DNA of 64,000 nt from Bifidobacterium actinocoloniiforme DSM 22766 (GTDB lineage Bacteria > Actinomycetota > Actinomycetes > Actinomycetales > Bifidobacteriaceae). Below are positions 35,321 through 51,172 of the stretch, piece by piece (the first letter of the stretch is position 1; every line of letters starts with the position of its first letter). The DNA is taken from NCBI RefSeq assembly GCF_001263395.1, contig NZ_CP011786.1, forward strand, positions 558,001 to 622,000, written 5' to 3'. A program made the position numbers and the translations under genes. Under the pieces are notes generated by a model. It was not told the DNA's origin. It did no database searches and saw nothing but the letters and a program-made list of their open reading frames with translations.

Positions 35321-35384
35321 TTTTGGGCAGGTCCTCACGTTTTCTTATGGATTTCGAAGGAAAAACGTGAGGACCTGCCCAAAA
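35321..35384. repeat. 64-bp inverted-repeat element, copy 1
   Basis: Perfect 23-bp arms (35321-35343 and 35362-35384) flank an 18-base centre. Each arm carries the shared half-site TTTTGGGCAGGTCCTCACG. This is the most symmetrical of nine copies. Confidence 0.9.
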
Positions 35385-35620
35385 TGCATTCCGAATCATC
35401 ACCGGGCATTGCCGCCGCTCTTTTCGACGCGACAGGCTCAGGGCATAACAACCAACGGGCATCAAGCCCGTTTGCTGGTAAGGCGCGTCCTTAAAGCTGG
35501 GTCTGTTCGATAAATCCACTAAGCATGCCCTCAAGTATCTGCTGTGCCAAAGCACGCATCCTGCCTTCGAGGCCCCCTTCCCTGGCTAACCTCCACCCTG
35601 AGCCGCGAACCCAATAATTA

Positions 35621-35684
35621 TTTTGGGCAAATCCTCACGGAATCAAGCCTGATGTCGCTGATTTACGTGCGAACTTGCCCAAAA
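35621..35684. repeat. 64-bp inverted-repeat element, copy 2
   Basis: Left half-site TTTTGGGCAAATCCTCACG; the right half-site read on the other strand is TTTTGGGCAAGTTCGCACG. Same total length as copy 1, different centre. Confidence 0.9.
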
Positions 35685-35807
35685 TGAATTTAGGGATGGC
35701 ACGGGCGGAGGAATTTGGCGAATTTCAGCGTTGTGGGTGCTCAACCGCCTGGAGGCGCTAACGACGACGCGCAGATAGCGGTTGAGTAGGTTCGAGGCGC
35801 AGAGCGG

Positions 35808-36692
35808 TCAGGACTTGCCCAACTCCAGCTGGTCGCAGGGCACCTTGGCGAAGAGGGCACGGACGTTGCGCCAGATGCGCCGGGTGACTACAGGCTGGTT
35901 CATCGAGTAAAGGTGGATTCCGTCCGCGCCTTGGGCGACTAAATCACTGATTTGCTGGGAGGCGTAAGCTATGCCGGCCTCCTGCAACGCCTCGGTGTCT
36001 CCGCCCCACTTATCCAGCAAGCGCTCCGCGGCGGGAGGTATCCGGAATCCGCAGGTCGAGCTCATGCGACGCACCTGGGCGGCTTTGGTAATCGGCATGA
36101 TGCCCGCCTCGATCGGGACACAGACGCCAGCCTCCCGTGCCCGATCCAAGAAGCGCATGAAGTCTTCATTATCGTAGAAGAGCTGGGAGATCAGATGATC
36201 CGCACCAGCATCGACTTTCTCCTTCAAATGCCGAATGTCCTCAGCTGGGGAGACGGCCTCAGGATGCGTTTCAGGATAGCAGGCAGCCGAAATCCGCAGA
36301 TTCGGCTTAGTTCGGCGCACGTAGGCGATTAAATCACAGGCGTGGGTGAACACCCCAGCAGGTTTCCGCCCTTGGACGCAGTCCCCTCGCAGGAGCAGGA
36401 CAGCTGAGACACCAGCCTGTTCGAACATATCCAAAGCCTCGCGGACAACGCCCTCATCCGAGTACTGGGCCGTCAAATGAGCAACGGCTGATATGCCATA
36501 CCCCTGGCGGATGGTCCGGCAAATGCGCGCGGTTGCGGTACGATCCGACTGCCTGCCGGTGCCGTAAGTCACTGAGATGAAGTCCGGCTCGAGTTCCTCA
36601 AGGCCGTCCAAAGTGTCGTAAATCGTCCCCACAGCGGCGTCGCGCTTAGGGGGGAAGACCTCCAATGAAAAAATCGGTTGATGCATATTCAT
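35808..36692 (-). CDS. metF: methylenetetrahydrofolate reductase
   Basis: Reduces 5,10-methylene-THF to 5-methyl-THF with FAD, supplying the methyl group used by MetE. The 294 residues show SLEVFPPK near the N-terminus, the catalytic glutamate region FISVTYGTG, LLRGDC and QLFYDNEDFMRF. AGGAGAGG precedes two closely spaced ATGs (36692 and 36686); either may be used. It lies 129 bp downstream of metE on the same strand, so the two form a methionine operon. Confidence 0.95.
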   Translation of the reverse strand: MNMHQPIFSLEVFPPKRDAAVGTIYDTLDGLEELEPDFISVTYGTGRQSDRTATARICRTIRQGYGISAVAHLTAQYSDEGVVREALDMFEQAGVSAVLLLRGDCVQGRKPAGVFTHACDLIAYVRRTKPNLRISAACYPETHPEAVSPAEDIRHLKEKVDAGADHLISQLFYDNEDFMRFLDRAREAGVCVPIEAGIMPITKAAQVRRMSSTCGFRIPPAAERLLDKWGGDTEALQEAGIAYASQQISDLVAQGADGIHLYSMNQPVVTRRIWRNVRALFAKVPCDQLELGKS

Positions 36693-36821
36693 ACCTCTCC
36701 TGCATACGAGCGGAACGGGCCCGAAAAGCCCTACGCGCCGCCGCGCGCCTTCACCCTCACAGCAGGCCGGGGCGAGTGACGCCTCCTGCGCGCCACCCTT
36801 CCCCGACCGAAAAGCGCCGAA

Positions 36822-39140
36822 TCAGCGCTCCACCGCCAGTCTCGCCCGCACAGCCTTGGCGGCGGCCACCATATGCTCCAAGCTGGGCCAAGTCTCAGCC
36901 TCGCCTCGGGTCTTGAGCCCGCAGTCCGGGTTGATCCACACCTTACCGGCATCCATCTTCCCCAGAATGAGATTGATTCGCTCCTCAATCTCCCCTTGGG
37001 AGGGGATGCGCGGCGAGTGAATATCGTAGACGCCAGGACCAGCCTCGGTCTCGAAGTGGGCCGCCTGAATCGCGTCCAAGACAGTCAAGTCGGAGCGGGA
37101 AGCCTCGAACGAGATCACATCAGCGTCCATCGCATCAATGTCCTCAATGATGTCATTGAATTCCGAATAGCACATGTGCGTGTGAATCTGCGTGGTCGGG
37201 TCAACGCCGGAATGGACCAGGCGGAAAGCGGGGATCGCCCAATCCAGATAGGACGAATGCCAGTCGGACCGCCGCAGGGGCAGCTTCTCTCGCAGGGCGG
37301 CCTCGTCAATCTGGATGACCTTGACGCCGCTCGCTTGCAAATCCAGCACCTCGTCGCGTATGGCCAGGGCCAGCTGTTGGGTCTGGAGTTCGTGGCTGAC
37401 ATCCTCCCTTGGCCAAGACCAGTTGAGCATCGTCACCGGACCGGTCAGCATCCCCTTGACCACATGATCGGTGCGGGACTGAGCGTACGCCGACCAACGC
37501 ACCGTGATGGGTCGAGCCCGCGAGACATCCCCCCACACGATAGGCGGCTTGACGCACCGGGTGCCATAGGATTGAACCCAAGCATTACGAGTAAAGAGGA
37601 AACCGTTAAGATTCTGTCCGAAGTATTCAACCATATCGTTGCGTTCAAACTCGCCATGGACGAGCACATCCAAGCCGATTTGCTCCTGTTTGGCGATGAC
37701 GCGGTCGATTTCCCCAGCGATGAAAGCGTCGTACTCCTCCTGACCAATCTCGCCCTTGCGCAGGCGCGCCCGTTCAGCACGGACCTGGGCGGTTTGCGGG
37801 AAGGAGCCGATTGTCGTGGTCGGCAGCATGGGCAGACCTAACGCGCTTCTCTGCAGGCGCTGGCGCTCGGCGCGGGCTGGTTGGCGGGTGAAATCCTGCG
37901 GTTGCAGGGCTGCGATCCGCTCCGCTACGACGGGGTCGGCCTGCACGCGGGATCCGTCGAAGAGGACCTGGTTGCCCGCCAATGCCGGGGACGCCCGTCG
38001 GCCCGCATCGTCCATATCCGCCAGATCGGAGACTTCCTTAAGCTCGCCGAGCTTCTCAACGGCGAAAGCGAAATGCCGCCGAACGGGTTCATCCAGACCG
38101 TCCTCGCCATCCAGGCTGAAGGGTACGTGGAGGAGGGAGGAAGCGGTGGAGACCGCCAGGTGGTCAGTCACCCGCCCTACCGCGTCTAGCAGCCCCAGGG
38201 ATCGGGCGTAATCATTGCGCCAAATATTGCGACCGCCAATCACTCCGGCGAAGATCGTGGTCCCCTGCGAGACCCCGCAGCGCTCCAGAGCGGCGAGATT
38301 GCCTTCCCGCCCTTCGACCAGGTCCAGTCCGATTCCGTCGAATCCCATGCTCTGCAGCACCTCGTAGCAGTCGTCCACATGCCCGAAGTAGGTTTGCAGG
38401 AGGAGTTTCACGGCCCCGCTGCCATTGTGTCGCGCGGGCATGATTCGGTCGTAGAGCGACTTGAATAGGCTTATGTCGCCGTCCTGCTTGTCCAGGACCA
38501 GGTAGGGCTCGTCCAGTTGCACCCATTCGGCGCCCAGATCGATGAATCGCGTCAGCACCTCGGCGTAGACCGCAGCAACCGAATCAATCAATTCGTGACG
38601 ATAATCCAGGCGCTGACCTTGCGGGCCCCGTGCCAGTTTCAAGAAGGTGTAGGGACCAACCAGCACCGGTTTGGTGATACGCCCCAGCTCCTTGGCTTCC
38701 TTGAACTCGTCAAAAGGCTTAGTCGAGCTCAGCTGAATCCGGGTGGAATCCTCGATCTCGGGCACCAGGTAGTGGTAGTTGGTCGTGAACCATTTTTTCA
38801 TCGGCAGCGCGGTCACATCGCCCTGAGGCCCCTGGTAGCCGCGCCCCATCGCGAACAGGGTGTCCTCCTCTGCAAGCCCCAGCCGCCGATACCGGGTGGG
38901 CACGGCGCCAAGAAGGATAGCGGTGTCCAGCATCTGGTCATAGTAGGAGAAGTCGTTGCTGGGAATCAGATCGACGCCCTGATCTGACTGTATCCGCCAA
39001 TGCGAAGCCCGTAAGGCCCTGCCCGTGGAGCGGACTTCATCCAGATCCGTGCGGCCTTTCCAGTAGCCTTCTATGGCTTTCTTCAGCTCCCTATGCGCGC
39101 CGATACGTGGGAACCCAACGACGGATGTAATCAAAGACAT
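36822..39140 (-). CDS. metE: cobalamin-independent methionine synthase
   Basis: Transfers the methyl group from 5-methyltetrahydropteroyltri-glutamate to homocysteine. The 772 residues match the family: an N-terminal barrel ([16 protein letters not shown]) and a C-terminal zinc-binding catalytic barrel ([33 protein letters not shown] with zinc ligands, and NPDCGLKTR). GGAGGGTCT precedes the ATG. A LysR-type palindrome lies 74-90 bp upstream. metF follows. Confidence 0.97.
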
Positions 39141-39213
39141 AGACCCTCCAAGTCTGCGCTAGTGGCTAGGAGTCAGCCTAGCAGCGGCGCGGCTGGGCCT
39201 GTAATTAGGAGAA

Positions 39214-39230
39214 TTATGATGTCGTCATAA
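39214..39230. promoter_or_regulatory. LysR-type palindrome upstream of metE
   Basis: TTATGA-N5-TCATAA, a perfect 6-base inverted repeat that also satisfies the T-N11-A pattern of LysR-family operators. It is 74 bp before the metE start, in an AT-rich patch, and 27 bp from a G9 tract. The LysR-type gene at 23047 is one possible partner, by inference only. Confidence 0.5.
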
Positions 39231-39256
39231 GCCGGCCCTATACCCCCAGCACTTCA

Positions 39257-39265
39257 GGGGGGGGG
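39257..39265. repeat. homopolymer tract G9
   Basis: Nine consecutive G on the plus strand between the SixA-like gene end (39272) and the metE promoter region. Confidence 0.9.
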
Positions 39266-39271
39266 TAGGAG

Positions 39272-39841
39272 TCACACAGGGTACTTGCGCAGGTCGTTGG
39301 GCCCGACTGTCCCAAGCAAATCAGCCGTGGACGGGCTCCAGTCCCGCAGGGGCTGAGCCGCTGCAAGAACAGCCGCACAGGCAGGCGGCATGCCCAGACC
39401 AAGAAGCCCTAGAGCGCCCTGGTCGCTTGCCGGATCGGCAAAGAGTTGGGCGCAATAGGAGACGGAGGGCTCATGAGTGACGATCAGCAGGAAGCGCTCC
39501 TCCTGCTTCGAGGCCACGAGCTCGTCCAAGAGGCCCTGGGTGCCGCCCGTATAGAGACTCTCCCGGTAGTCCACCGAAGGCCCATCGCCGAAGGAACTAA
39601 GCATGAGGTCGAGGGTCTGCCTGGCTCGCAATGCGCCGGAGCACGCGATCCGATCAGGGATGAGACCCAATGCAGACAGGCTGCGTCCTACTGTTTCCGC
39701 TTGCTTCCGCCCCTGCAGGCTCAAGGGCCTGGAGCGGTCCCCTCCTGCGCCGCACGGCTCGGCTTGAGCATGACGCATGATGAGCAACAAGTGACCGGAG
39801 CTCTTCGCTTGGTCCGCAAGCGCCTGCGGGTCCACCTTCAT
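39272..39841 (-). CDS. SixA-like phosphohistidine phosphatase
   Basis: Small histidine-phosphatase-superfamily enzyme. The catalytic RHG-type motif reads LLIMRHAQAEP near residue 20, followed by SRPLSLQGRKQAE, SGALRARQT and the second histidine in VTHEPSVSYCA. Such proteins can dephosphorylate phosphohistidines; the substrate here is unknown. The ATG overlaps the trmI stop (ATGA), so it is translated in coupling with the tRNA methyltransferase. Confidence 0.85.
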   Translation of the reverse strand: MKVDPQALADQAKSSGHLLLIMRHAQAEPCGAGGDRSRPLSLQGRKQAETVGRSLSALGLIPDRIACSGALRARQTLDLMLSSFGDGPSVDYRESLYTGGTQGLLDELVASKQEERFLLIVTHEPSVSYCAQLFADPASDQGALGLLGLGMPPACAAVLAAAQPLRDWSPSTADLLGTVGPNDLRKYPV

Positions 39842-40965
39842 GGCTCCTCCTGTCTGCGTGCGGCGGCCTCGACTTGGGCCTCCTGCCGCTCCAAGTCGCG
39901 TAGGACCTTACGCAGTTTGCGGTCGGAAATGTCGCGCAGGCTCAAATCGGACCAGCCTCCATCGGCACCTGCGCCCGCGCTTGCCTGGATATTCGGCTGC
40001 TCCGGGATGGTTTGATCGATGTCTGCGTGCACATTTTTGTTGCCGCGCTCCCGCTTGTGCAACGCTTGGAAACCTGCCGCCATCGCCCTGGTCACCACCA
40101 GGAATCCGCTGTGCCCGATCATCTGGTGCTGCGGACGTACGGCGAGCCCGTCCGCCTTCCACCCGCGTTCCAGGGTCTCGCTTATCTCCGGTTCTGTCCA
40201 GGAGCCGCTGGCGCGCAAGGCTTCGGACAGGCGGCCCAGCTGGGTGGCCGTCGTCACGTAAGCGGTCAGCACGCCCCCGGGGGCCAGGGCCCGCCAGGCT
40301 GCATCCAAACGGTTCCAAGGGTCCAACATATCCAAGACGATTCGGTCGTATGCGCCTGCGGGCAGGAGGGGCGCCACTTGGTCAAAGTCGCCGACGCGCA
40401 GGTCCCAGCAGTCGGGTTTACCGCCAAAGTAGACGGTGGCGTTGCCGACAGCCACGCGGGCGAATTCGGCGCGCAGTTCGATGGTGGTCAGCCCGCCTTG
40501 CGAGCCCACGGCATCCAGTAGTGCGATGCTCATGGCCCCTGACCCGGCTCCAGATTCCAGGACCCTCATACCTGAGCGAATATCGCCAGCCAGAAGGACT
40601 TGGGCTATGTCTTTGGGGTACATGATCTGAGCGCCCCGGGGCATGGAGAGCAGGAAGTCTGACAGCCTGGGCCGCATCATGGTGTAGACCCATCCGCCAA
40701 CCGCTCGCGCTGATTTCCACGGCTTGCGCGGATCGTTCCCTGCTTCGCCGGCAGGATCGCTATTGCCGCATGCCTTGAGTTCCTGGGCGGAAATCGTTGA
40801 TACGAGCGAGCCTTCGCTCAGTCCGATCAACCTGTCGTGCGCCAAGAAGCCGCGGTCGGTTTGGGTCACCGCGCCTCGTTCCAACAGCAGGGTGAGCATC
40901 TTGCCTTTGCGATCGGTCAGCTGGACTTTCTCACCCGCCCGTACAGGTCCGCGGCGTACTGCCAT
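39838..40965 (-). CDS. trmI: tRNA (adenine-58-N1)-methyltransferase
   Basis: S-adenosylmethionine-dependent enzyme that makes m1A58 in the T-loop of tRNA. An N-terminal beta domain (GEKVQLTDRKGKMLTLLLERG) precedes the Rossmann domain with YPKDIAQVLLAGDI and the SAM-binding RVLESGAGSGAMSIALL; YDRIVLDMLDPWN follows. The 375 residues include a C-terminal extension of about 80 residues rich in Gln and Arg. GGAGGAGA lies ahead of the ATG, inside the end of the small upstream frame. Confidence 0.9.
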   Translation of the reverse strand: MAVRRGPVRAGEKVQLTDRKGKMLTLLLERGAVTQTDRGFLAHDRLIGLSEGSLVSTISAQELKACGNSDPAGEAGNDPRKPWKSARAVGGWVYTMMRPRLSDFLLSMPRGAQIMYPKDIAQVLLAGDIRSGMRVLESGAGSGAMSIALLDAVGSQGGLTTIELRAEFARVAVGNATVYFGGKPDCWDLRVGDFDQVAPLLPAGAYDRIVLDMLDPWNRLDAAWRALAPGGVLTAYVTTATQLGRLSEALRASGSWTEPEISETLERGWKADGLAVRPQHQMIGHSGFLVVTRAMAAGFQALHKRERGNKNVHADIDQTIPEQPNIQASAGAGADGGWSDLSLRDISDRKLRKVLRDLERQEAQVEAAARRQEEP

Positions 40966-41300
40966 CAGTTCTCTCCTCCGTTCATGAACCGCGCATTGCC
41001 ACGCCAGGCGGGCAAGCCTTCCACCTGCGCAAACCGTTCACGGGGAGCCTGCCAGCTGCCCGCCTCGCGTCTGCTGGAAACTCCGCCATAGAACCCATTG
41101 AAACACAGCGGAGGGTCAACCAAACGACGAGCCCAACCATCCAGCACGCACCCTATAAAGGGCAGCAGCCAAAGCCGTCGCACCCGCAACACCGGATCAT
41201 CTGCCAACTTCTTGAACACCACCGTCGCTTTCCTTACCCCGCCCGGACGAATCCGCACACCCAGCGGAGGGGATGCCGCGTAAGAAACTATGACCAGCAT
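40965..41300 (-). CDS. possible small protein coupled to trmI
   Basis: Open frame of 111 codons whose TGA overlaps the trmI ATG (TGATG), with GGAG 9 bases before its ATG. The protein is basic, has no membrane segment or known motif, and ends in NGGEN, encoding the trmI ribosome binding site. The coupling and coding-like composition argue for a real gene; the absence of any recognisable family argues against. No function is proposed. Confidence 0.4.
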   Translation of the reverse strand: MLVIVSYAASPPLGVRIRPGGVRKATVVFKKLADDPVLRVRRLWLLPFIGCVLDGWARRLVDPPLCFNGFYGGVSSRREAGSWQAPRERFAQVEGLPAWRGNARFMNGGEN

Positions 41301-41375
41301 ACCCCTGAGCTCCACCCACCCCATCCTCATTTGCTCGCCAAATCCCTCCCCACATCCCCACACCATCTTTTCCTA

Positions 41376-41439
41376 TTTTGGGCATCCCCTCACGCAGAAA
41401 GGCACATTCAGCCCGATAAATGTGATGAGCTGCCCAAAA
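41376..41439. repeat. 64-bp inverted-repeat element, copy 3
   Basis: Left half-site TTTTGGGCATCCCCTCACG; right half-site TTTTGGGCAGCTCATCACA on the other strand. The centre contains GCCCGA 10 bases before the right arm. Confidence 0.9.
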
Positions 41440-41558
41440 TAAGACATCATGAAAACCGAGCCAAGACCCAAGGTGATATGCCCGCGCGATGTTGGAGCCG
41501 ACTCAATCCGTGCGCACCATAAGCCCAATCAGCGAGCCCCGCATCGGCAATATTCCAT

Positions 41559-41623
41559 TTTTGGGCAGCCCCCTCACGATTTTCCTGTGAATAATGCCTG
41601 ATTCCGTGAGGAGTTGCCCAAAA
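41559..41623. repeat. 65-bp inverted-repeat element, copy 4
   Basis: The left half-site has one extra C (TTTTGGGCAGCCCCCTCACG); the right half-site is TTTTGGGCAACTCCTCACGG. An additional T/A pair extends both ends. GCCTGA precedes the right arm. Confidence 0.9.
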
Positions 41624-41801
41624 AGAAACACGAGGAGGGAGCTCCGGCCAGACCGCGTCGGAAGCAGAGTCGCATAGGCGACTTTCGGAGCCCCGGGCGG
41701 AGATCGAGCGAGATGTACCGGGCGACGTTTACGGAGAAGAAAAAGGGCCGCGACACCGCTAGTGCGGTTCGCGGCCCGAGCAAGTCCAAGCCGACTGGCT
41801 G

Positions 41802-42260
41802 TCAGACGGCAGTGCCGTACGAATCCAAGCGCGGGTTCTCCTTATACGAACCACCAACGAAGAACAGGCTGATGACACCGACAGTGAACACCGCGCAAAT
41901 CGTGATAATGGCCCACATCGGCATATTCGGAACCCACATCGCAACCAGGAAGGCGATAATCGAAAGCACGATCAAGCACCAGCTGAGCAGGCGGAACCAA
42001 TGCCGAACCGAACGCGGCTTCTCGACCAGTTTCGGATCGCGCAGACTAGGATCAACTTGCTCCGCCACCGGGGCCAAATCATTACGACCACTGGGTTTCC
42101 ACTCCCCGTTATCGCCCGCGGCCAGTCTGCGAGCCTTCTCCTGCAACGCCTGCTCGTCCAACATGCCCCGGCGGCTCTTCATCGCCCCACGCGTGTATTG
42201 GTCCCCATCTCCCCTGCGAGCGCTCTTCGCACGTGCCCGCCGTTCAGCACGGTTCGACAT
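41802..42260 (-). CDS. small membrane protein of unknown function
   Basis: 152 residues. The first 85 are hydrophilic and very basic (SNRAERRARAKSARRG), followed by two membrane segments (about 88-108 and 114-134) and a short polar tail. This looks like a conserved actinobacterial membrane protein with a DUF-type architecture, but no function is known to me. The ATG at 42260 has GGAGG 7 bases upstream. Confidence 0.7.
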   Translation of the reverse strand: MSNRAERRARAKSARRGDGDQYTRGAMKSRRGMLDEQALQEKARRLAAGDNGEWKPSGRNDLAPVAEQVDPSLRDPKLVEKPRSVRHWFRLLSWCLIVLSIIAFLVAMWVPNMPMWAIITICAVFTVGVISLFFVGGSYKENPRLDSYGTAV

Positions 42261-42470
42261 CAAATCGCCTCCACGTTTAGTAAGCTCTTCCCCGGTATTG
42301 CCTAGCAGACCTTGGCCCCGACGAGCAGACGGGGAAGGCCTCGCGTAAGCATAATATTAGACCAGACCCCAAACCGCGAGACAAGGGTAAATCCCCGACG
42401 GCGCCCAAACCGGACCTCACAGCGGAGGCCATGCTTTACCCTGCAAGAAACCGGCAGCGGACCCGCGCCC

Positions 42471-43877
42471 TTAAGCGCCAACCGCTTCTAGCACGTCAGC
42501 GATCAAATCGTCATTGAGCAAGCGGCCGCGGCGTGTTGGTACGATTCGCCCACCACGCGCCTGCGCCAGCCCGCCATGTAAAGCAGGCGCGAGCCGGCGT
42601 AAGTCCAAGCGCCCGCCCGCTAAGCGCTCCAGCTTTTCCAGTGACAGTCCTTCACGAATCCGTAATCCCAGCATCACGCCCTCTTCGAGTCGTTCGCGGG
42701 GTCCAATCACTTCGCCGCCAGACCAGGGCTGGCGCTCCTGATTCACCGCTCTCGCCCAGGCCCTCGGATGCCGAATATCCCAAACGCGGACGGACTCCCC
42801 AGCAACTTTGCTGCAGTCCGCGGCGGGTGAAGGACCAGCGAAGCGAAACGCCTGCGGACCTTCGCCTGAACCGTCGTCCCCTCTTTGCCCGGTTTTGCGC
42901 CAGGCACCTTCCTCGCTCCTCCCGCCAGCACTGCCGCCAGTCTCTGAAATCTCTGAAACCGGATCCAGCTCGATCCAGTTATAGTGCGAATGGGCTCCAG
43001 GTCCGATTCCGGCCCAATCCACGTTGCGCCAGTAGCCTAAATTATGACGCGACTCATGGCCAGGCCGCGCCCAGTTGGAGACTTCGTACCATTGCAGCCC
43101 CGCCGCTTGGAACAAGTCATCCGCCAGCTCGTACTTGTCGGCTTCGTCATCGTCATCAGGATGGGCCAGTTGACCTGCCGCGACCTGCCGGCCCATTTTC
43201 GTCGTTGGTTCCAGGGTGAGCGCATATGCCGAAATATGGTTGACACCCAAGGAGAGCGCCTCCTGCACGCTTTGTTCCCACTCGTCGATGCTCTCGCCCG
43301 GGGCTCCGTAAATCAGGTCAACGCTGCACTCCAATCCCAAACGGCGTGCGGCTGCAACCCCCGCGGTCACATTAGCTGGGGTGTGCGTGCGTTCCAGGAT
43401 GCGCAGGACGCGTGGCACAGCCGATTGCATACCGAAAGAGACACGGGTGAAACCGCCTTGGGCGAGTTGGGCGAGGTAGCGCTCGTCGACGGTGTCTGGA
43501 TTGGCCTCCGTCGTGATCTCCGCGTCCGGCTGCAAACCCCAGAGGGACCGTGCCGCATGGAGCATACGCACCAAATCCTCCGCCGGCAGAACCGTAGGCG
43601 TTCCACCCCCGAAGAACACGCTCGACAGTGCGGGTTCCACGAGCCCGTGCTCTTCTTGCCAATCGCGGATCAGTCGCATCTCCCGGATCGCCACACTCGC
43701 ATAACCACCTCGGCTGGCTCCTTCACCCAAGTCGACTGCGGTATACGTGTTGAAATCGCAGTACCCGCACCGCCGCAGGCAGAAAGGCACATGAATATAC
43801 AATTCGAATGGCTTCGCCGCCTGTCTCGCCGTAGCGTCTTGCTGTCGCTTCATCTTCACCATCTTCCATTCATCCAC
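42471..43877 (-). CDS. hemW: HemW-type radical SAM protein (heme chaperone family)
   Basis: Radical SAM protein once annotated as oxygen-independent coproporphyrinogen oxidase; HemW proteins bind and insert heme. The [4Fe-4S] motif is CxxxCxxC at 33, 37 and 40 in PFCLRRCGYCDF, followed by FFGGGTPT and the barrel motifs VSFGMQS and DLIYGAPGE. Residues about 301-360 are a Gly/Ser/Glu-rich insertion before the C-terminal HemN domain. Three in-frame starts (GTG 43877, ATG 43862, ATG 43853) are possible. Confidence 0.92.
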   Translation of the reverse strand: MDEWKMVKMKRQQDATARQAAKPFELYIHVPFCLRRCGYCDFNTYTAVDLGEGASRGGYASVAIREMRLIRDWQEEHGLVEPALSSVFFGGGTPTVLPAEDLVRMLHAARSLWGLQPDAEITTEANPDTVDERYLAQLAQGGFTRVSFGMQSAVPRVLRILERTHTPANVTAGVAAARRLGLECSVDLIYGAPGESIDEWEQSVQEALSLGVNHISAYALTLEPTTKMGRQVAAGQLAHPDDDDEADKYELADDLFQAAGLQWYEVSNWARPGHESRHNLGYWRNVDWAGIGPGAHSHYNWIELDPVSEISETGGSAGGRSEEGAWRKTGQRGDDGSGEGPQAFRFAGPSPAADCSKVAGESVRVWDIRHPRAWARAVNQERQPWSGGEVIGPRERLEEGVMLGLRIREGLSLEKLERLAGGRLDLRRLAPALHGGLAQARGGRIVPTRRGRLLNDDLIADVLEAVGA

Positions 43878-44236
43878 GTCCAGCCCCTCATATCCGCCTC
43901 ACCCATTGTCATCTTCCCCTCCCTCTTCCTCCGCCGATCCCCACGTGCCTGCTTCTTTCCCATTTTGGGCGGTTCATCACGAAAATACGCGTTTTCGGTC
44001 TCAGGAACGTGTGGACTTGCCCAAATATTGCAGTTGAGAGGTTTACCGTCAAATACGGCAGCATGCACCGAGCGACGGGGGAGGGGGGGTAGAGCGCAGG
44101 CGGCGGGACAGCCAACCTCAACCGATTGCATATTAATCCAACAAGGCAAACCAAGGCAATCACAGCCTTCGCATCAACCACAACGAGCTCGAGGCGTCCT
44201 GATTGCACCATGACCGTAACCGCCCCAGAGGGTTGG
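43878..44236. other. gap between lepA and hemW with one inverted-repeat element
   Basis: About 360 bases. Contains repeat copy 5 and a G5-A-G7 run (44077-44089). No gene was recognised. lepA ends at its right edge and hemW starts at its left edge, both on the minus strand. Confidence 0.45.
43963..44026. repeat. 64-bp inverted-repeat element, copy 5
   Basis: Left half-site TTTTGGGCGGTTCATCACG; right half-site ATTTGGGCAAGTCCACACG. This is a more diverged copy, with differences in both arms that do not compensate each other. Confidence 0.85.
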
Positions 44237-46111
44237 TCACTGGTCCTTCTGCGCCGCTCGAATCTTGTCCTTGCTGTCCCGGTCCTCCGCCTCGCCGGTG
44301 CTCAAAGCCGCGATGAAAGCCTCTTGTGGCACCTCCACATGACCGAGGAGCTTCATCCGCTTCTTACCCGCTTTCTGCTTTTCCAGCAGCTTCCTCTTTC
44401 GAGTGATGTCGCCGCCGTAGCATTTCGCCAGCACATCCTTACGGAGCGCCCGAATGGTCTCTCGGGCGATGATGCGCGAACCTATCGCGGCCTGAATCGG
44501 AATCTCGAACTGCTGGCGTGGAATCAACTCGCGCAACTTCTTGGTCATCATAACGCCGTACGTATAAGCCTTATCCCGGTGGACTATTGAGGAGAATGCG
44601 TCGATCTTCTCCCCTTGAATCAGGATGTCCACCTTAACCAGGTCGGCGGCTTGCTCGCCATCCTCGTGGTAATCCAGGCTCGCGTAGCCTTTGGTGCGGC
44701 TTTTGAGTTGATCGAAGAAATCGAAAACAATCTCCGCCAACGGCATCCGGTAGTGCATTTCAACCCGTTCCGGGCTCAAATACTCCATGGTCCCCATCTG
44801 CCCACGATGGTCCTGGCAGAGATCCATGACCGCGCCGATGAACTCTTTGGGAGTGATGATATCCGCAGCGGCGACAGGTTCGACGATACGTTTGACCTTG
44901 CCTTCCGGGAACTCGTTGGGATTCTTCACCATGTGCTCCGAACCGTCCTCCATCGTCACCTGGTAAGTCACGTTCGGAGCGGTGGAAATGAGGTCGAGTC
45001 CGAATTCCCGGCTCAAGCGTTCGGAAACGATCTCCATGTGGAGCAAACCCAGGAATCCGCAGCGGAAGCCGAAGCCCAGGGCGACAGACGTCTCAGGCTC
45101 GTAGACCAGGGCCGCATCGTTGAGTTTGAGCTTGTCGAGCGCCTCGCGCAACTCAGGGAATTGCGCGTTATCGATTGGGAAGAGCCCCGAGTAGACCATC
45201 GGCTGCGGGTCCCGGTAGCCCGGCAACGGCTCATCCGCCTGCCGGGATTCGAGGGTGATCGTGTCTCCCACCTTGGATTGGGCCACGTCCTTGACGCCGG
45301 TGATGACGTAACCAACTTCGCCGGCGCCCAAGGCTTTGGTGGCTATCATGTCCGGACTGATGACACCCAACTCCACGGGGTCGTGCACGGTGCCCAGGCT
45401 CATCATCCTAATCCGCTGCCTGGCTTTAAGCTCCCCGTCCACCATTCGGATGTAGGTGACGATGCCGCGATAAGAGTCGTATACCGAATCGAAGATCAAA
45501 GCCCGCGCCGGCGCGGCGGGGTCGCCTTTTGGCGCCGGGACTTCCGTAACGATACGGTCGAGGAGCTCGCGGACCCCCTCGCCGGTCTTCCCGGAGACGC
45601 GCATCACCTCGCTGGTATCGCAACCGAGGAGATTCGCTATTTCCTCGGCATGCCGGTCGGGCTCCGCTGACGGCAGGTCGATTTTATTGAGAACAGGGAT
45701 GATGGTCAGATCGTGGTCGATCGCCATGTAGAGGTTCGACAAGGTCTGCGCTTCGATGCCTTGCGTGGCGTCCACCAGCAGGACGGCCCCCTCGCATGCC
45801 TCCAGCGCGCGCGACACTTCGTAGGTAAAGTCCACGTGGCCCGGCGTGTCAATCATGCCCAAAGTGTACTCGACGCCGTCTTTCACCCACGGGACCCGCA
45901 CGGCCTGAGATTTAATCGTGATACCACGCTCTTGCTCGATGTCCATGCGATCGAGGAAGCGATCATGCATCTCCCGCTGCGATACCACTCCGCTCAGTTG
46001 GAGGATTCGGTCGGCAACCGTCGATTTGCCGTGGTCGATGTGCGCGATGATGCAAAAGTTGCGAATCAGCGCCTGATTAGTGAATCCTGGCTGGTTGGTA
46101 AAGGTAACCAC
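44237..46111 (-). CDS. lepA: translation elongation factor 4 (LepA)
   Basis: Ribosome-bound GTPase that back-translocates or remodels stalled ribosomes. G-domain motifs are [17 protein letters not shown] and NKIDLPSA, followed by EF-G-like domains and the LepA-specific C-terminal domain ([22 protein letters not shown]). The frame is open to 46141, but GTG at 46111 has AGGAG 4 bases upstream and gives 624 residues, close to family length. Confidence 0.96.
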
Positions 46112-46258
46112 CGGGCTCCTCTCCTCGCAATGCTCGAACAACTCATCCTATCCCGAGCCCTAGGCTTTTCCCTTAGTCCAATGCTTTTCTTCCCTAAACG
46201 ACGACTAAGTGCGGCACTCCTTTCATCCTCTCAAAAACCCGACTCTCCCTTACCCCTT

Positions 46259-46280
46259 CCCCCCCCCCCCCAAAAAAAAA
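46259..46280. repeat. double homopolymer tract C13 then A9
   Basis: Thirteen C (46259-46271) directly followed by nine A (46272-46280) on the plus strand, 148 bp upstream of the lepA start. It reads T9-G13 on the lepA strand. Confidence 0.9.
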
Positions 46281-46294
46281 TGACTCTGTTTACA

Positions 46295-46359
46295 TTTTGG
46301 GCAGCTCCTCACTAGTTAATCGTTTCATTTGCCTGTGTACCGTGACGAATTGCCCAAAA
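46295..46359. repeat. 65-bp inverted-repeat element, copy 6
   Basis: Left half-site TTTTGGGCAGCTCCTCACT; right half-site TTTTGGGCAATTCGTCACG. It lies 15 bases from the C13-A9 tract. Confidence 0.9.
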
Positions 46360-46565
46360 TACCAGTTGCGCGGTCATACTCGGTTGGCTGAGCGACAGAT
46401 GACCTGATTGGGCAGAGAAGAGAAGCCTTATCCGATTGAGATCTAAGCGCGGCACTCCCCTGGTTTGAAATAAAGCAAGCCGCATCACGGATTTAGTTAG
46501 TCGAGATTCGGCTCGCATGGCTTTGCTCTGGCATAGAATAATCGTGTCCCGCAAAGGAGAAAAGA

Positions 46566-47156
46566 ATGAGACTGAGGCCCTACCGCAAGCATGAAGACGA
46601 TGCTCGTCTACTCGAGTTAGCTGAACTGATAGCCGTGCGCGGGAATCCGCTAGGTCTCAGCATGCTCGACTACAAGCTTTTTGAACGTCAGCTCCTCGCT
46701 GAACAACTTATGGACGAGCGCAAACAGGACGATGACTCCATCATTGTCGCCGTTGCGGATTCAGCCGAGGAATTGCAGCGAATAGTCCCCCCTCAATCCT
46801 CTCCCGAGCCAGCAGGCAGCGCCAACCCACCCAGGACTAAGCCAAATCCGTCGCGAGTCCAAGGCCAGAGCAGTAGGATCATTGGCTTCATCAACCTTTC
46901 AGTCCGCCCGGACCCCACCAGCGGCCGTCCATGCGGCTATATCAGCCAGCTGTGTGTGGATCAGCGCTTCCAAGGCGAGGGCATCGGAAAATCATTGCTC
47001 ACCGAGGCGAAGCAGTGGGCTAACCGCAACGGCTTATTCAAGCTCACCGTCAATCTTTCCGCAGCGAACGAGAGCGCCATCTCCTTCTGCGAGAAGCTAG
47101 GCCTTCGCCTCAGTGCGGTCAGTATGGAGGTGTCTTGCGCCCAACCTGATTGCTGA
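46566..47156 (+). CDS. GNAT-family N-acetyltransferase
   Basis: Acetyl-CoA-dependent acetyltransferase. Motif A reads QLCVDQRFQGEGIGKSLL (about 135-152) and the downstream ANESAISFCEKLGL fits motif B. A Pro/Ser/Asn-rich segment at about 78-105 interrupts the N-terminal half. 196 residues. The acetylated substrate cannot be told. It lies 83 bp upstream of rpsT on the same strand. Confidence 0.85.
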   Translation: MRLRPYRKHEDDARLLELAELIAVRGNPLGLSMLDYKLFERQLLAEQLMDERKQDDDSIIVAVADSAEELQRIVPPQSSPEPAGSANPPRTKPNPSRVQGQSSRIIGFINLSVRPDPTSGRPCGYISQLCVDQRFQGEGIGKSLLTEAKQWANRNGLFKLTVNLSAANESAISFCEKLGLRLSAVSMEVSCAQPDC

Positions 47157-47239
47157 TCGCTATCGTTCCCTGGTTTTCCAGGCCGCATGGTAGTATTATT
47201 TTTCGTCTGTATCGGTAGCACATGTCGTTTGGAGCAACA

Positions 47240-47500
47240 TTGGCAAACATTAAATCGCAGAAGAAGCGGATTCGCACTAACGAGAAAGCGCATCTGCGCA
47301 ACAAGGAAGTCAAGAGCGCCATCAAGACCTCCATCCGCAGCGTCCGCAAGGCCATTGACGAAGGCGACAAGGCGGGCGCGCAGTCCGCTTTCTCGGTCGC
47401 AGCTCGGCGCCTGGACAAGGCGGCTGGCAAGGGTGTCATCCACCGCAACCAGGCGGCCAATCGCAAGTCCGGCCTCGCGACCGCTATCAACGCTATGTGA
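47240..47500 (+). CDS. rpsT: 30S ribosomal protein S20
   Basis: Primary 16S rRNA-binding protein of the small subunit. Lys/Arg-rich helices with [20 protein letters not shown] at the N-terminus. The frame is open from an ATG at 47222, but the family begins at [12 protein letters not shown] at 47240 with GGAG 5 bases upstream fits, giving 86 residues. E. coli rpsT also uses UUG, where it is part of autogenous control. TATTAT near 47197 could be the -10 element. A strong terminator follows at 47518. Confidence 0.95.
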
Positions 47501-47517
47501 TTGCTGCAGTCTTCCAG

Positions 47518-47555
47518 CAAAGGCGTCCACTCCTCGTACGGGGTGGGCGCCTTTG
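47518..47555 (+). terminator. terminator of rpsT
   Basis: A 16-bp stem with two G-U pairs (47518-47533 with 47540-47555, 6-base loop) lies 17 bases after the rpsT stop codon. It lacks a proper U-run (TCGTACC follows). Confidence 0.7.
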
Positions 47556-47942
47556 TCGTACCACCAATGGCTATGGCGCTCGAGCTTATGTCTGGAAGGC
47601 CACATATGAGAGCCAACTCTGCTCATATGCTCACTATTACAGATTCGAATTCACGATAATGGTACCTACAAGGCATGCACCGCTTACTTATCAGCAAATC
47701 GAGAACAAGCGAAACATGAGTCACAAAGCCGGTTCAGCGCCCATGAATGCCCCAACGAACTAGTAGCCGTTGTCCAAGAGCAAGCGCAATTCTCCTTACG
47801 CTGCCCTTGCGGGCAATTGATAACGCTTGCTAAACCGTGGTCTCCAACAAGGCACGTTACCATTCGCCGAAGAAATCGCCTCGGATTCGCCGCGCAGTCA
47901 ATCCAATAACGCTAATCCTCTGTAACCCTCTCTTCGCGACTA

Positions 47943-48007
47943 TTTTGGTCGGTTCCTCACAAGTGAAACGTTACAGCCTGAGCTATCACGTGACGATCCG
48001 CCCAAAA
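47943..48007. repeat. 65-bp inverted-repeat element, copy 7
   Basis: Left half-site TTTTGGTCGGTTCCTCACA; right half-site TTTTGGGCGGATCGTCACG. The left arm carries the only change inside the GGGC core of a left half. Confidence 0.85.
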
Positions 48008-48223
48008 TGCTAAAAAAGACCACCCCCTAAACATCCGTTCTCGGGATAGTCCAACAATGCACAGGGAGTTCGGCGCAGAGTACCCGCATATATCGGTTGC
48101 CTAAGAAAAGGTAGTGAGCGGGAAACGTGGCTTGAATGCCCGAATGGGTGGACTTATCCACATTCGACCACATTGGTCAGGACGATTTGGAACTCTCTTC
48201 GAACCACCCATAGACTCAAACCC

Positions 48224-49400
48224 ATGAATACGAACCAAGCATCCGTCGAACAGCTCGGACTCTTGTCCAAGAGCAGAAGATGCTGCCTTGTGCCTGCATC
48301 GAACCGCGAGCGCATGCGCCTGCTTCGTGCCGTTAAACGAGGCAGCGTTAAGCGGCCCAAACCACATCTGTATGCGCCAACGCCCTATTGGGTTTCGTTG
48401 ACACGGTATGAGCAAGCCCTCCACCTGATCCGCGCCACAGCTCGCCGCCGGCCAGAGTGGACATTCTGCTACCTATCCGCAGCGCTTGTCTGGGGACTGA
48501 CGGAAACAGTTTTCCTGCATGCGCAAATGCATGTCGCAGCTAAGAACCACACTCATGTCCGCGTCGGCGGCAGCATAAAATCTCACTTCTGCCTGGTCCC
48601 GAAACCCAAGAAACGCAATGGCGTATCAGTAACGCCGCTCGTGCAGACAGTCTATGACTGCGCTCGACGGCTGGATTACGGCAATGCTCTGGCCATCTGT
48701 GAAACGGCCATGAGGTTGTACGGGGTGAAACGCCGCCAACTGGAAGCCTACGCCAACGCACGGCCCCACACCTGGGGCAGGGATCGTGCGCTCTATGTCT
48801 TCGCGCAAGCAGGGCCTCTTAGCGAAAACGGCGGCGAGTCCATAGCCCGAGCCCGCTTCGATGGCTGGGGGTATGCGGCTCCCAAACAACAAGTCTCGGT
48901 CGAGCGCCCCTTCCAAGCAGGCAAGAGGCTCCGGCTCGACTTCCTGTGGACCACCAGGAATGGCCGATTGGTCGCCGGTGAACTGGATGGCCGGGAGAAG
49001 TACATCAATCCAGCCATGACAGGTGGCGGTTCCGTGGCTGATGTGATTTTGAAGGAGAAAAGACAGGGAGACGGAATTATCACTGTTGGGTTATGTGATT
49101 GTTCGCTTCTCCTACAAGCACATACAAGAAAGGCATGGGATTCTAGTGCAACGAAAACTGGATGCGGCGGGAGTACCGCGATTGGACGATCAACTGATCT
49201 CAGAGAAAACGGAGAACCAGGAGGTCCACCGTTTATTCGGCAGCTGCTGGGATCAGACCCACACCTGTTGGGCCGGCATGACTAGCCAATACCGTCAACT
49301 CAGGCAAGCACGCAGCCATGACAGCCGACGGCCGCCAAACCGTCCGAACTTTAGGGCACGGCGCAAACCCCCGGAAATGGAAACCATACGTTCCTTCTGA
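48224..49400 (+). pseudogene. frameshifted AbiEi / DUF559-like protein gene
   Basis: The first frame (ATG 48224, ending 49285) shows an N-terminal region like AbiEi-type antitoxins and a C-terminal nuclease-like fold (RLRLDFLW ... VAGELDG.EKY ... ILKEKRQ). Similarity leaves this frame near 49083 and resumes in the +1 frame as GYVIVRFSYKHIQERHG...AGVPRL, which runs to 49400. A one-base insertion at about 49080-49090, or a sequencing error, explains this. Members occur near abortive-infection systems or as orphans; no AbiEii partner is visible here. Base composition is lower in GC than its neighbours. Confidence 0.7.
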
Positions 49401-49594
49401 ATTTCTGCCCGGAGCGGGCAGTCTAATTGGAACGACTGCCTGACCGGCCCCTGCTGTTCCCACACTCCTGTTCTGGAGTTTTGTCAAGCGGCGCAAAAAT
49501 AGCAGGGTACGGCAGAAGCGCATCTGCGAAAAAGGTGGGGCGCCAAGCCGGCAGCGCGTGCCAACGCTTAGCCCCCACCCTGAATACGGCGGAA

Positions 49595-50722
49595 TCAGCA
49601 GACGCGCCACATCCAATTATGGGGATCTTCCCCCTCACCTAGTTGAATGCCAAGGAGCTCGTCGCGCAGATGCATGGTCAAGGGCCCCGAGCCCCCATCC
49701 GCAACGGTTTCATCAAAGTTCTCAGACTTGAACCGTCCTATGGGGGTGATGATTGCGGCCGTACCGCAAGCGAATACTTCAGTCACTTCCCCGCTACGAA
49801 TGTCATCGAGCAAGTCGGTCAACCCAATCATAGTTTCAGTCACCGCATGCCCCTCATCTTGGGCGAGCTGAATCACAGAGCGACGCGTCACGCCCGGTAG
49901 AATCGTTCCCGTTAGGCTTGGCGTCTCTAAGTGTCCGTCCTTATGGACGGTGAACATGTTCATCCCGCCGAGCTCCTCCAAGTAGGTGCCGGACGCCGCG
50001 TCAACGAAGCAAACCTGTTCGCAACCATGTTGAGCCCCACGATTCTCCCCAACCAGTGAAGCCGCATAATTACCGCCGCACTTAGCAAATCCCGTGCCAC
50101 CCGGACCCGTGCGGAACCACCTGTCCTCCACCCAGATGCTGACCGGTTTCACACCGCCCGGGAAGTAAGGTCCCGATGGTGAGGCGATGGCGCAGTAATC
50201 CACCTGATGCGGTGCCCTGACGCCGAGATAGCACTCGGATGCGTACATGAACGGGCGCAAGTAAAGCGTGTACTCACGCCTTGTTGGCACCCAGGCCGCA
50301 TCCTGCTTCACAAGCGCGGCGACCGAACCCAGGAAGTCCTCTGTGCTCAAGGCCGGCAGAGCGAGGCGCTTCGATGAGTTTTGAAAGCGCTCAGCGTTGG
50401 CATCCGGCCTGAACAACCAGATAGAACCGTCGGCATGATGATAGGCCTTCAGCCCCTCGAACACTTCCTGCGCATAGTGCAAGACCGTTGCAGCAGGATC
50501 CAATTTCAACGGGCCATAGGCTTCTACTTTCCTATCCGACCAGCCTCCATCTTGTTTCCATGTCATACGTACCATACTGTCGGAGAACAGCTGTCCGAAA
50601 GCGGGTTTGTCAATCATTGCCTCGCGCTGTTCATCGGAGGCTGGGTGCTCGTTAGGCACGACCTCAAACGTTGACGCGAGTCCGCTCAAATATTCTGGAT
50701 CATGATGTGATTGGCTAGTCAT
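49595..50722 (-). CDS. ilvE: branched-chain amino acid aminotransferase
   Basis: PLP enzyme of fold class IV that makes Leu, Ile and Val from their keto acids. Motifs: LHYAQEVFEGLKAY, the arginine-containing LYLRPFMYASE, the PLP lysine in GFAKCGGNYAASL and EELGGMNMF. 375 residues, the usual class IV length in Actinobacteria. The ribosome binding site is weak (GAAGAAG). Two inverted repeats lie upstream at 50970 and 51109. Confidence 0.95.
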   Translation of the reverse strand: MTSQSHHDPEYLSGLASTFEVVPNEHPASDEQREAMIDKPAFGQLFSDSMVRMTWKQDGGWSDRKVEAYGPLKLDPAATVLHYAQEVFEGLKAYHHADGSIWLFRPDANAERFQNSSKRLALPALSTEDFLGSVAALVKQDAAWVPTRREYTLYLRPFMYASECYLGVRAPHQVDYCAIASPSGPYFPGGVKPVSIWVEDRWFRTGPGGTGFAKCGGNYAASLVGENRGAQHGCEQVCFVDAASGTYLEELGGMNMFTVHKDGHLETPSLTGTILPGVTRRSVIQLAQDEGHAVTETMIGLTDLLDDIRSGEVTEVFACGTAAIITPIGRFKSENFDETVADGGSGPLTMHLRDELLGIQLGEGEDPHNWMWRVC

Positions 50723-50969
50723 GTGACACTTCTTCTCAGCAAATAGGAAGTTGCAGATACAGACCTGGCCCTACGCTTGTGGCGATTCGCCGGTATAAGG
50801 TGCATCTTAGGCGTCAGCCTGGAAGAGCACATCGGAATAGTCCACATGTTGACCATAACCGTCTCATACTCAAAACGTAAAGTCTCATTAAGTCCGTTCC
50901 TCAACTTCCAACTCCGCTTGCCCGCCTCACCCCGTCATTACGTTCACCCCAGCGAGCCTTCTGATTGCA

Positions 50970-51033
50970 TTTTGGGCAATTCTTCACGAAAACAGGAGGA
51001 CAATCATGAGTTTTCATGAGCATCTGCCCAAAA
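50970..51033. repeat. 64-bp inverted-repeat element, copy 8
   Basis: Left half-site TTTTGGGCAATTCTTCACG; right half-site TTTTGGGCAGATGCTCATG. It lies 248 bp upstream of the ilvE start. Confidence 0.9.
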
Positions 51034-51108
51034 TGCCGGTTTTGGAATGGGCGTGCCCTCGCGCGGCTCCCTTACGAGGGCTCGAAGCCGACAGCCGGCA
51101 TTCTGCGT

Positions 51109-51172
51109 TTTTGGGTAATTCCTCACGAAAATAGTCATGAATCCACTGAATTCAGTGAAGACCTGCCCAAAA
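51109..51172. repeat. 64-bp inverted-repeat element, copy 9
   Basis: Left half-site TTTTGGGTAATTCCTCACG; right half-site TTTTGGGCAGGTCTTCACT. The centre contains the small palindrome CACTGAATTCAGTG. Confidence 0.9.

Follow-up and report, generated by a model that had tools for sequence, protein, structure and literature searches.

Fixed-length intergenic palindromes near an AbiEi/Vsr-like gene of Bifidobacterium actinocoloniiforme: a probable REP/RAYT-style unit

Introduction

Why should nine short inverted repeats of constant length and variable centre lie between the genes of a single 16-kb stretch of chromosome? The stretch belongs to Bifidobacterium actinocoloniiforme DSM 22766 (genome of 1,830,060 bp, G000 in our numbering) and falls within a window of 64,000 nucleotides (C1:558001-622000), the whole stretch of DNA analysed; positions without prefix refer to this window. 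An initial annotation offered three readings, namely paired protein sites, a stem-loop RNA or a small mobile unit. The standard example of bacterial palindromes linked to a nuclease gene is the REP/RAYT system. The present analysis adds to that annotation a candidate partner gene, the position of the copies relative to the terminus and their relatives in other bifidobacteria.

A palindrome family of fixed length

Checking the window and aligning the copies recovered all nine repeats where the annotation had placed them and bore out their fixed length, which from one end to the other is 64 or 65 bp in every copy. They are listed here without strand:

35321..35384, palindrome copy 1, 64 bp, glnE/metF gap; arms perfect at 23/24 nt
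35621..35684, palindrome copy 2, 64 bp, glnE/metF gap
41376..41439, palindrome copy 3, 64 bp, gap adjoining the TrmI-like gene
41559..41623, palindrome copy 4, 65 bp, same TrmI-like gap as copy 3
43963..44026, palindrome copy 5, 64 bp, hemN/lepA gap
46295..46359, palindrome copy 6, 65 bp, lepA/GNAT gap
47943..48007, palindrome copy 7, 65 bp, rpsT/nuclease-like gene gap, on the upstream side of the nuclease-like gene
50970..51033, palindrome copy 8, 64 bp, ilvE/rplY gap
51109..51172, palindrome copy 9, 64 bp, ilvE/rplY gap

The pattern TTTTGGGC-N44..56-GCCCAAAA matches six of the nine exactly. The end pattern had 0 matches in 100 dinucleotide-preserving shuffles of the window, and the chance expectation for nine palindromes of 64-65 bp is 0. 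The copies are intergenic as described, none of the nine overlapping a recognisable conserved gene; an ORF with its start at 51016, within the copy at 50970, has no family match. Their confinement to 16 kb holds inside the window but not genome-wide: a search of the genome with a 35-site covariance model added two copies and no more, a weaker match at C1:441335 (L146) and one at C1:625059-625123 (L148), 3 kb beyond the window end. The latter keeps the TTTTGGGCA tips, and the inner part of both its arms reads AAGCGAAC, not TCCTCAC.

All copies end in TTTTGGGCA / TGCCCAAAA. The TTTTGGGCA tip and an inner CAC are common to the palindromes of this genome and its relatives, and the six-base spacer between them is of one type per species (nnTCCT in this genome, CTTTCT in G001, CTTTCG in G021). 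The two arms of a copy agree at 7.1 of 11 positions, vs 7.2 for arms taken from different copies (the 625059 copy left out); across all four species the likeness within copies gives p=0.013 (stratified permutation). Since arms are scarcely more alike within a copy than across copies, sequence-specific double-stranded half-sites appear to fit better than a conserved hairpin. Paired protein sites are thus the best supported of the three readings, given the conserved arms, free centre, fixed length, weak within-copy covariation and a candidate binder gene inside the cluster, and this genome offers little support for a stem-loop RNA.

Three known identities were considered and set aside. Intrinsic terminators have the opposite arrangement to the TTTT...AAAA ends found here, and 0 terminators were predicted on the copies; an Rfam search of the window returned tRNA only; and no integrase gene, as would accompany integron attC sites, was noticed nearby.

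Conservation and relatives of the element

Among 27 genomes of the genus, the wider search found the same element in G001, G021 and G026. Gene order is conserved between these and G000, and the gaps occupied in common are glnE/metF, TrmI-like/next, hemN/lepA, lepA/GNAT, rpsT/next and ilvE/rplY, with further shared gaps across dif. At seven orthologous gaps, G001 and G021 are identical at 0.82 of arm positions, vs 0.34 in the centres and 0.32 in the flanks. Such arm-only identity at orthologous positions indicates that the copies are old and that constraint acts on the arms alone, and because three relatives hold the element in identical intergenic gaps it appears to be vertically inherited in this clade, not newly inserted. 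These orthologous positions in four species speak against a recent mobile unit; past mobility is nevertheless likely, since other bifidobacteria have related palindromes that are scattered and that border the partner gene described below.

A core, GCA-N6-CACG-N26/27-CGTG-N6-TGC, is found within the genus in G000, G001, G015, G021, G024 and G026. The palindrome of G015 and G024 has a core of 52/53 bp (64/65 bp when measured to its AACTGTGCA tips), and the core-sharing copies of these two are scattered across the whole genome. A third palindrome type occurs in G096, a member of another genus. The gap upstream of lepA is filled in all six core-bearing genomes and in G096, and the lepA/GNAT gap that holds copy 6 is occupied in the same set. 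The only match in G023, to the loose pattern and with a spacing that departs from the core, was taken to be due to chance. When the exact-end pattern was run against all GTDB species, those in unrelated phyla among the matches listed were single and apparently due to chance.

Other long palindromes came to light. Matches of model R1 in G016 were rejected as the same element and belong to a different 98-bp repeat, which is dispersed (L203-L205) and has the ends TTTTGGGCACTTGCAGAAGTA; no partner-gene homologue was found in G016. A 97-bp palindrome of G005 (L206), with AGTTTTGCGGCAATTGCGCAGTA, is similar to the G016 type. A CTGTGCA palindrome family in G015 (e.g. L207, L209, L212) has 18 exact copies, and no matching partner gene was found for it; the sole partner-gene homologue of G015 is flanked by another palindrome, ACTAAAAGGACAGC.

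Position relative to dif

The terminus was located by dnaA and a dif-like site, CGATAATGTACGTTATGTC, at C1:509195-509213 (-) in G000. This site is single, is present in 27/27 genomes of the genus and is exact in 26. All 11 copies in B. actinocoloniiforme lie 68-116 kb from it, and the closed genomes G000, G001 and G021 have copies on either side of dif, at most 116 kb away, and none elsewhere. Every closed genome has a few copies across dif, 44-68 kb off (C1:441335 (L146), L149, L150, L155 and L163); nearness to the partner gene does not account for these. For the copies in general, being near the terminus is confounded with being near the gene.

Such an arrangement would be expected of terminus-organising sites, at which, as with MatP at matS, a bound protein would fold the terminus or set its position; the nuclease-like gene would then encode the terminus-binding protein itself or be a bystander. 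Palindromic sites restricted to the dif region in the clade of G000, G001 and G021 recall matS, and the retention of orthologous positions, the arm-only conservation and the presence of copies in convergent, divergent and tandem gaps alike agree with this explanation. However, the element spans 64 bp, vs 13 bp for matS (PMC3330122), dif is present but such palindromes are absent in most species of the genus, and the association with the gene is seen also where the terminus plays no part. The genome-wide scatter of same-core copies in G015 and G024 would further argue against a general terminus function, and we regard a terminus-organising role as unlikely. A polar fork trap (Tus-Ter, RTP) was rejected, the sites being symmetric inverted repeats, not asymmetric, oriented ones.

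A candidate partner protein

Nine of the 11 palindromes of this genome fall in the 16 kb around one nuclease-like gene:

48173..49285, + strand, candidate partner gene; AbiEi antitoxin-like N-terminal half and Vsr/EDxHD-like nuclease fold, assigned from homologues, alignment and model

Comparison with homologues favours the ATG at 48224 as its start. The product has no Pfam match, and a PDB sequence search with it gave no match. In an AlphaFold model (mean pLDDT 78.8), residues 6-197 align with the AbiEi antitoxin [PDB-id: 6y8q, Z 9.2, 175 residues, rmsd 6.2] and residues 202-318 with the catalytic domain of I-Bth0305I [PDB-id: 3r3p, Z 10.6, rmsd 2.4, 94 residues]; the C-terminal domain also aligns with Vsr [PDB-id: 1cw0, Z 9.5]. 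AbiEi was the top-ranked Foldseek match (E 1e-3), and 8/9 homologues gave weak matches to the PADLOC AbiEi profile. E205, D239, E253, D255 and K259 are invariant in nine homologues; no invariant His is present, nor is the His-Asp portion of a canonical EDxHD motif apparent.

The DNA bound by AbiEi consists of two 23-bp inverted repeats with 3 bp between them, and in the pairs bound by Rv2827c the repeats are 13 bp apart (PMC7319586). I-Bth0305I forms a dimer on a target that is nearly 60 bp long (PMC3943268). Two half-sites of ~19 bp across 64 bp would, by analogy, fit such a dimer. The predicted AbiEi fold, with its DNA-binding winged helix, and the binding of paired inverted repeats by AbiEi (PMC7319586) are points of likeness to AbiE type IV toxin-antitoxin systems. 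Unlike these, the partner protein has an additional C-terminal nuclease-like domain, its gene adjoins rpsT and ilvE with no adjacent AbiEii/DUF1814 gene, and the sites occur at many loci beyond its own promoter. The predicted Vsr-like fold of the C-terminal domain likewise links the protein to EDxHD homing endonucleases, but the gene lies outside any intron, the putative target is a multi-copy intergenic palindrome, and the five conserved residues come without a clear His-Asp pair.

AbiEi and Rv2827c regulate their own genes through inverted repeats in their promoters (PMC7319586), and the copies could in the same way be operators of a small regulon, with an AbiEi-like repressor controlling its own and neighbouring genes and a nuclease fold that is inactive or unrelated. 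A copy upstream of the gene in G000, G001, G021 and G024, and several copies upstream of other genes, are what such control predicts. Copies also lie downstream of the gene, however, as well as in convergent gaps that have no promoter (G001 919939-920331 and its equivalents), the adjacent genes are an unrelated set of housekeeping genes, and the putative metal-site residues are invariant in the nine homologues. We consider a regulon improbable.

Association of gene and palindromes

Within the genus the partner gene is limited to G000, G001, G012, G015, G021, G024 and G026. It is thus present in 6/6 core-bearing genomes vs 1/21 others (Fisher 2.4e-5), the exception being G012, in which palindromes were not detected. 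Family-wide, the gene alignment A3 has 1-12 matches per genome in 111 of 161 good genomes. By one fixed procedure applied to all loci, similar palindromes were found on both sides at 11/30 gene loci, vs 0/22 lepA loci and 1/109 random bacterial loci; a pair was not detected at the other 19/30 gene loci. The flanking rule was found post hoc, although nine of the 11 loci that follow it come from genomes outside the discovery set; three of those nine (G129, G131 and G132) are close relatives, which leaves about seven lineages.

In B. actinocoloniiforme, copies lie upstream of the gene and, past ilvE, downstream. Relatives of the gene sit between palindromes in G024 and G096, where, as in G000, the copies are also concentrated about the gene. 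Paralogues have differing palindromes, as with ACTAAAAGGACAGC in G015 and a second type in G024, and a second gene of G096 is surrounded by a CGTCGTTTC-GTAGCAC palindrome. Related proteins can also have related tips, G096 and its tree neighbour G082 sharing CACAATGTGC. In a tree label test (the G056 row left out owing to a wrong-frame translation), the core-sharing proteins needed three changes, because their supported clade includes proteins whose palindromes are of other types. Against the partnership speak two families for which no matching partner gene was found, the CTGTGCA palindromes of G015 and the 98-bp ones of G016.

Ordinary MITE- or REP-like repeats, or transcribed hairpins, that happen to lie close to a nuclease-like gene would account for the near-perfect palindromes of G096, as for hairpins, and for the within-copy covariation at variable positions in G015 and G024 (0.44-0.76 vs 0.25-0.40). 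Covariation is scant in this genome, however, and no copy has an Rfam match or a predicted terminator. The flanks read showed neither the target-site duplication of a MITE nor direct repeats, and coincidence would have to produce both the orthologous positions in four species and the association with the gene. We hold it to be very improbable.

Origin and decay of the gene locus

The rpsT/ilvE gap has had other contents: in G012 rpsT adjoins ilvE directly, and in G096 and in G019, the member of its group that was inspected, another gene, by eye for a UPF0126-type membrane protein, lies between them. The nuclease-like gene therefore appears to be a lineage-specific occupant of this gap. In B. 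actinocoloniiforme it is damaged:

49054..49057, + strand, A-run, one A longer than in intact homologues; the resulting frameshift costs the product its conserved C-terminal part

The G026 gene lacks one A in the same run (L233 about 2374-2380) and differs at conserved motif residues; the genes of G001 and G021 are intact. Because the corrections are opposite (+1 in G000, -1 in G026), independent mutations fit better than a programmed frameshift, which was rejected; phase variation or sequencing error may still account for the A-run changes in both genomes.

Arm conservation is lowest in the two genomes with a frameshifted gene. The arms hold 24.2 and 22.8 bits of information in G000 and G026, vs 29.5 and 30.7 in G001 and G021, and deviate more from the consensus in the frameshifted genomes (site-level p=3.5e-5, with sites in one genome not fully independent and four genomes compared). 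REPs are likewise known to decay following RAYT loss (PMC3686654).

Comparison with REP/RAYT

We consider the gene and palindromes most probably to be a REP/RAYT-style unit, in which an AbiEi/Vsr-like dimer on paired half-sites maintains, and perhaps spreads, the palindromes (probability roughly 0.68). Each palindrome would consist of two inverted half-sites of ~19 bp, 64-65 bp end to end; we infer that a dimer of the protein encoded at 48173-49285 binds both arms and that its nuclease domain acts, perhaps by cleavage, at or near the site. By analogy with REP/RAYT, this domain has probably spread or maintained the sites, mostly near the gene. Related proteins with related tips, copies beside or around the gene and looser arms at a damaged gene suggest that gene and palindromes form a co-evolving unit.

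REP/RAYT shares with this system intergenic palindromes in multiple copies, a nuclease gene with cognate palindromes on both flanks (here at 11/30 homologue loci), multiple gene/palindrome pairs in one genome and the loosening of palindromes once the gene is damaged (PMC3686654). The unit would thus work like REP/RAYT but is not a member, since it has neither the tag nor the transposase family. Its palindromes measure 52-70 bp or more at fixed spacing, vs 20-40 bp for REPs, have no GTAG/GG or CGTC tag (PMC3733652) and share no tag outside the arms; they number about 10-20 copies vs hundreds; and the partner is an AbiEi-like and Vsr/EDxHD-like protein, not an HUH tyrosine transposase, for which the neighbouring genes gave no Pfam match. 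We found no description of an AbiEi-Vsr/palindrome partnership in the open-access literature.

A broader version, to which we give a little less than an even chance, is that every AbiEi-Vsr fusion throughout bifidobacteria has a long palindrome of its own, which it recognises, cuts and propagates. This would be a counterpart of REP/RAYT built from an antitoxin-like binder and a homing-endonuclease fold. If so, a second, unrelated enzyme family would have the REP/RAYT layout, which would mean that such a layout has evolved more than once, and the many bifidobacterial AbiEi-like/nuclease proteins that lack annotation would gain a first function. Since a readable palindrome adjoins many paralogues, their DNA specificity would be predictable and directly testable.

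In G024, a 978-bp segment is present at two loci with 98% identity (L270 4538-5515 and L271 5610-6587); one end of the duplicate, the other lying away from any palindrome, coincides exactly with the outer end of a palindrome.
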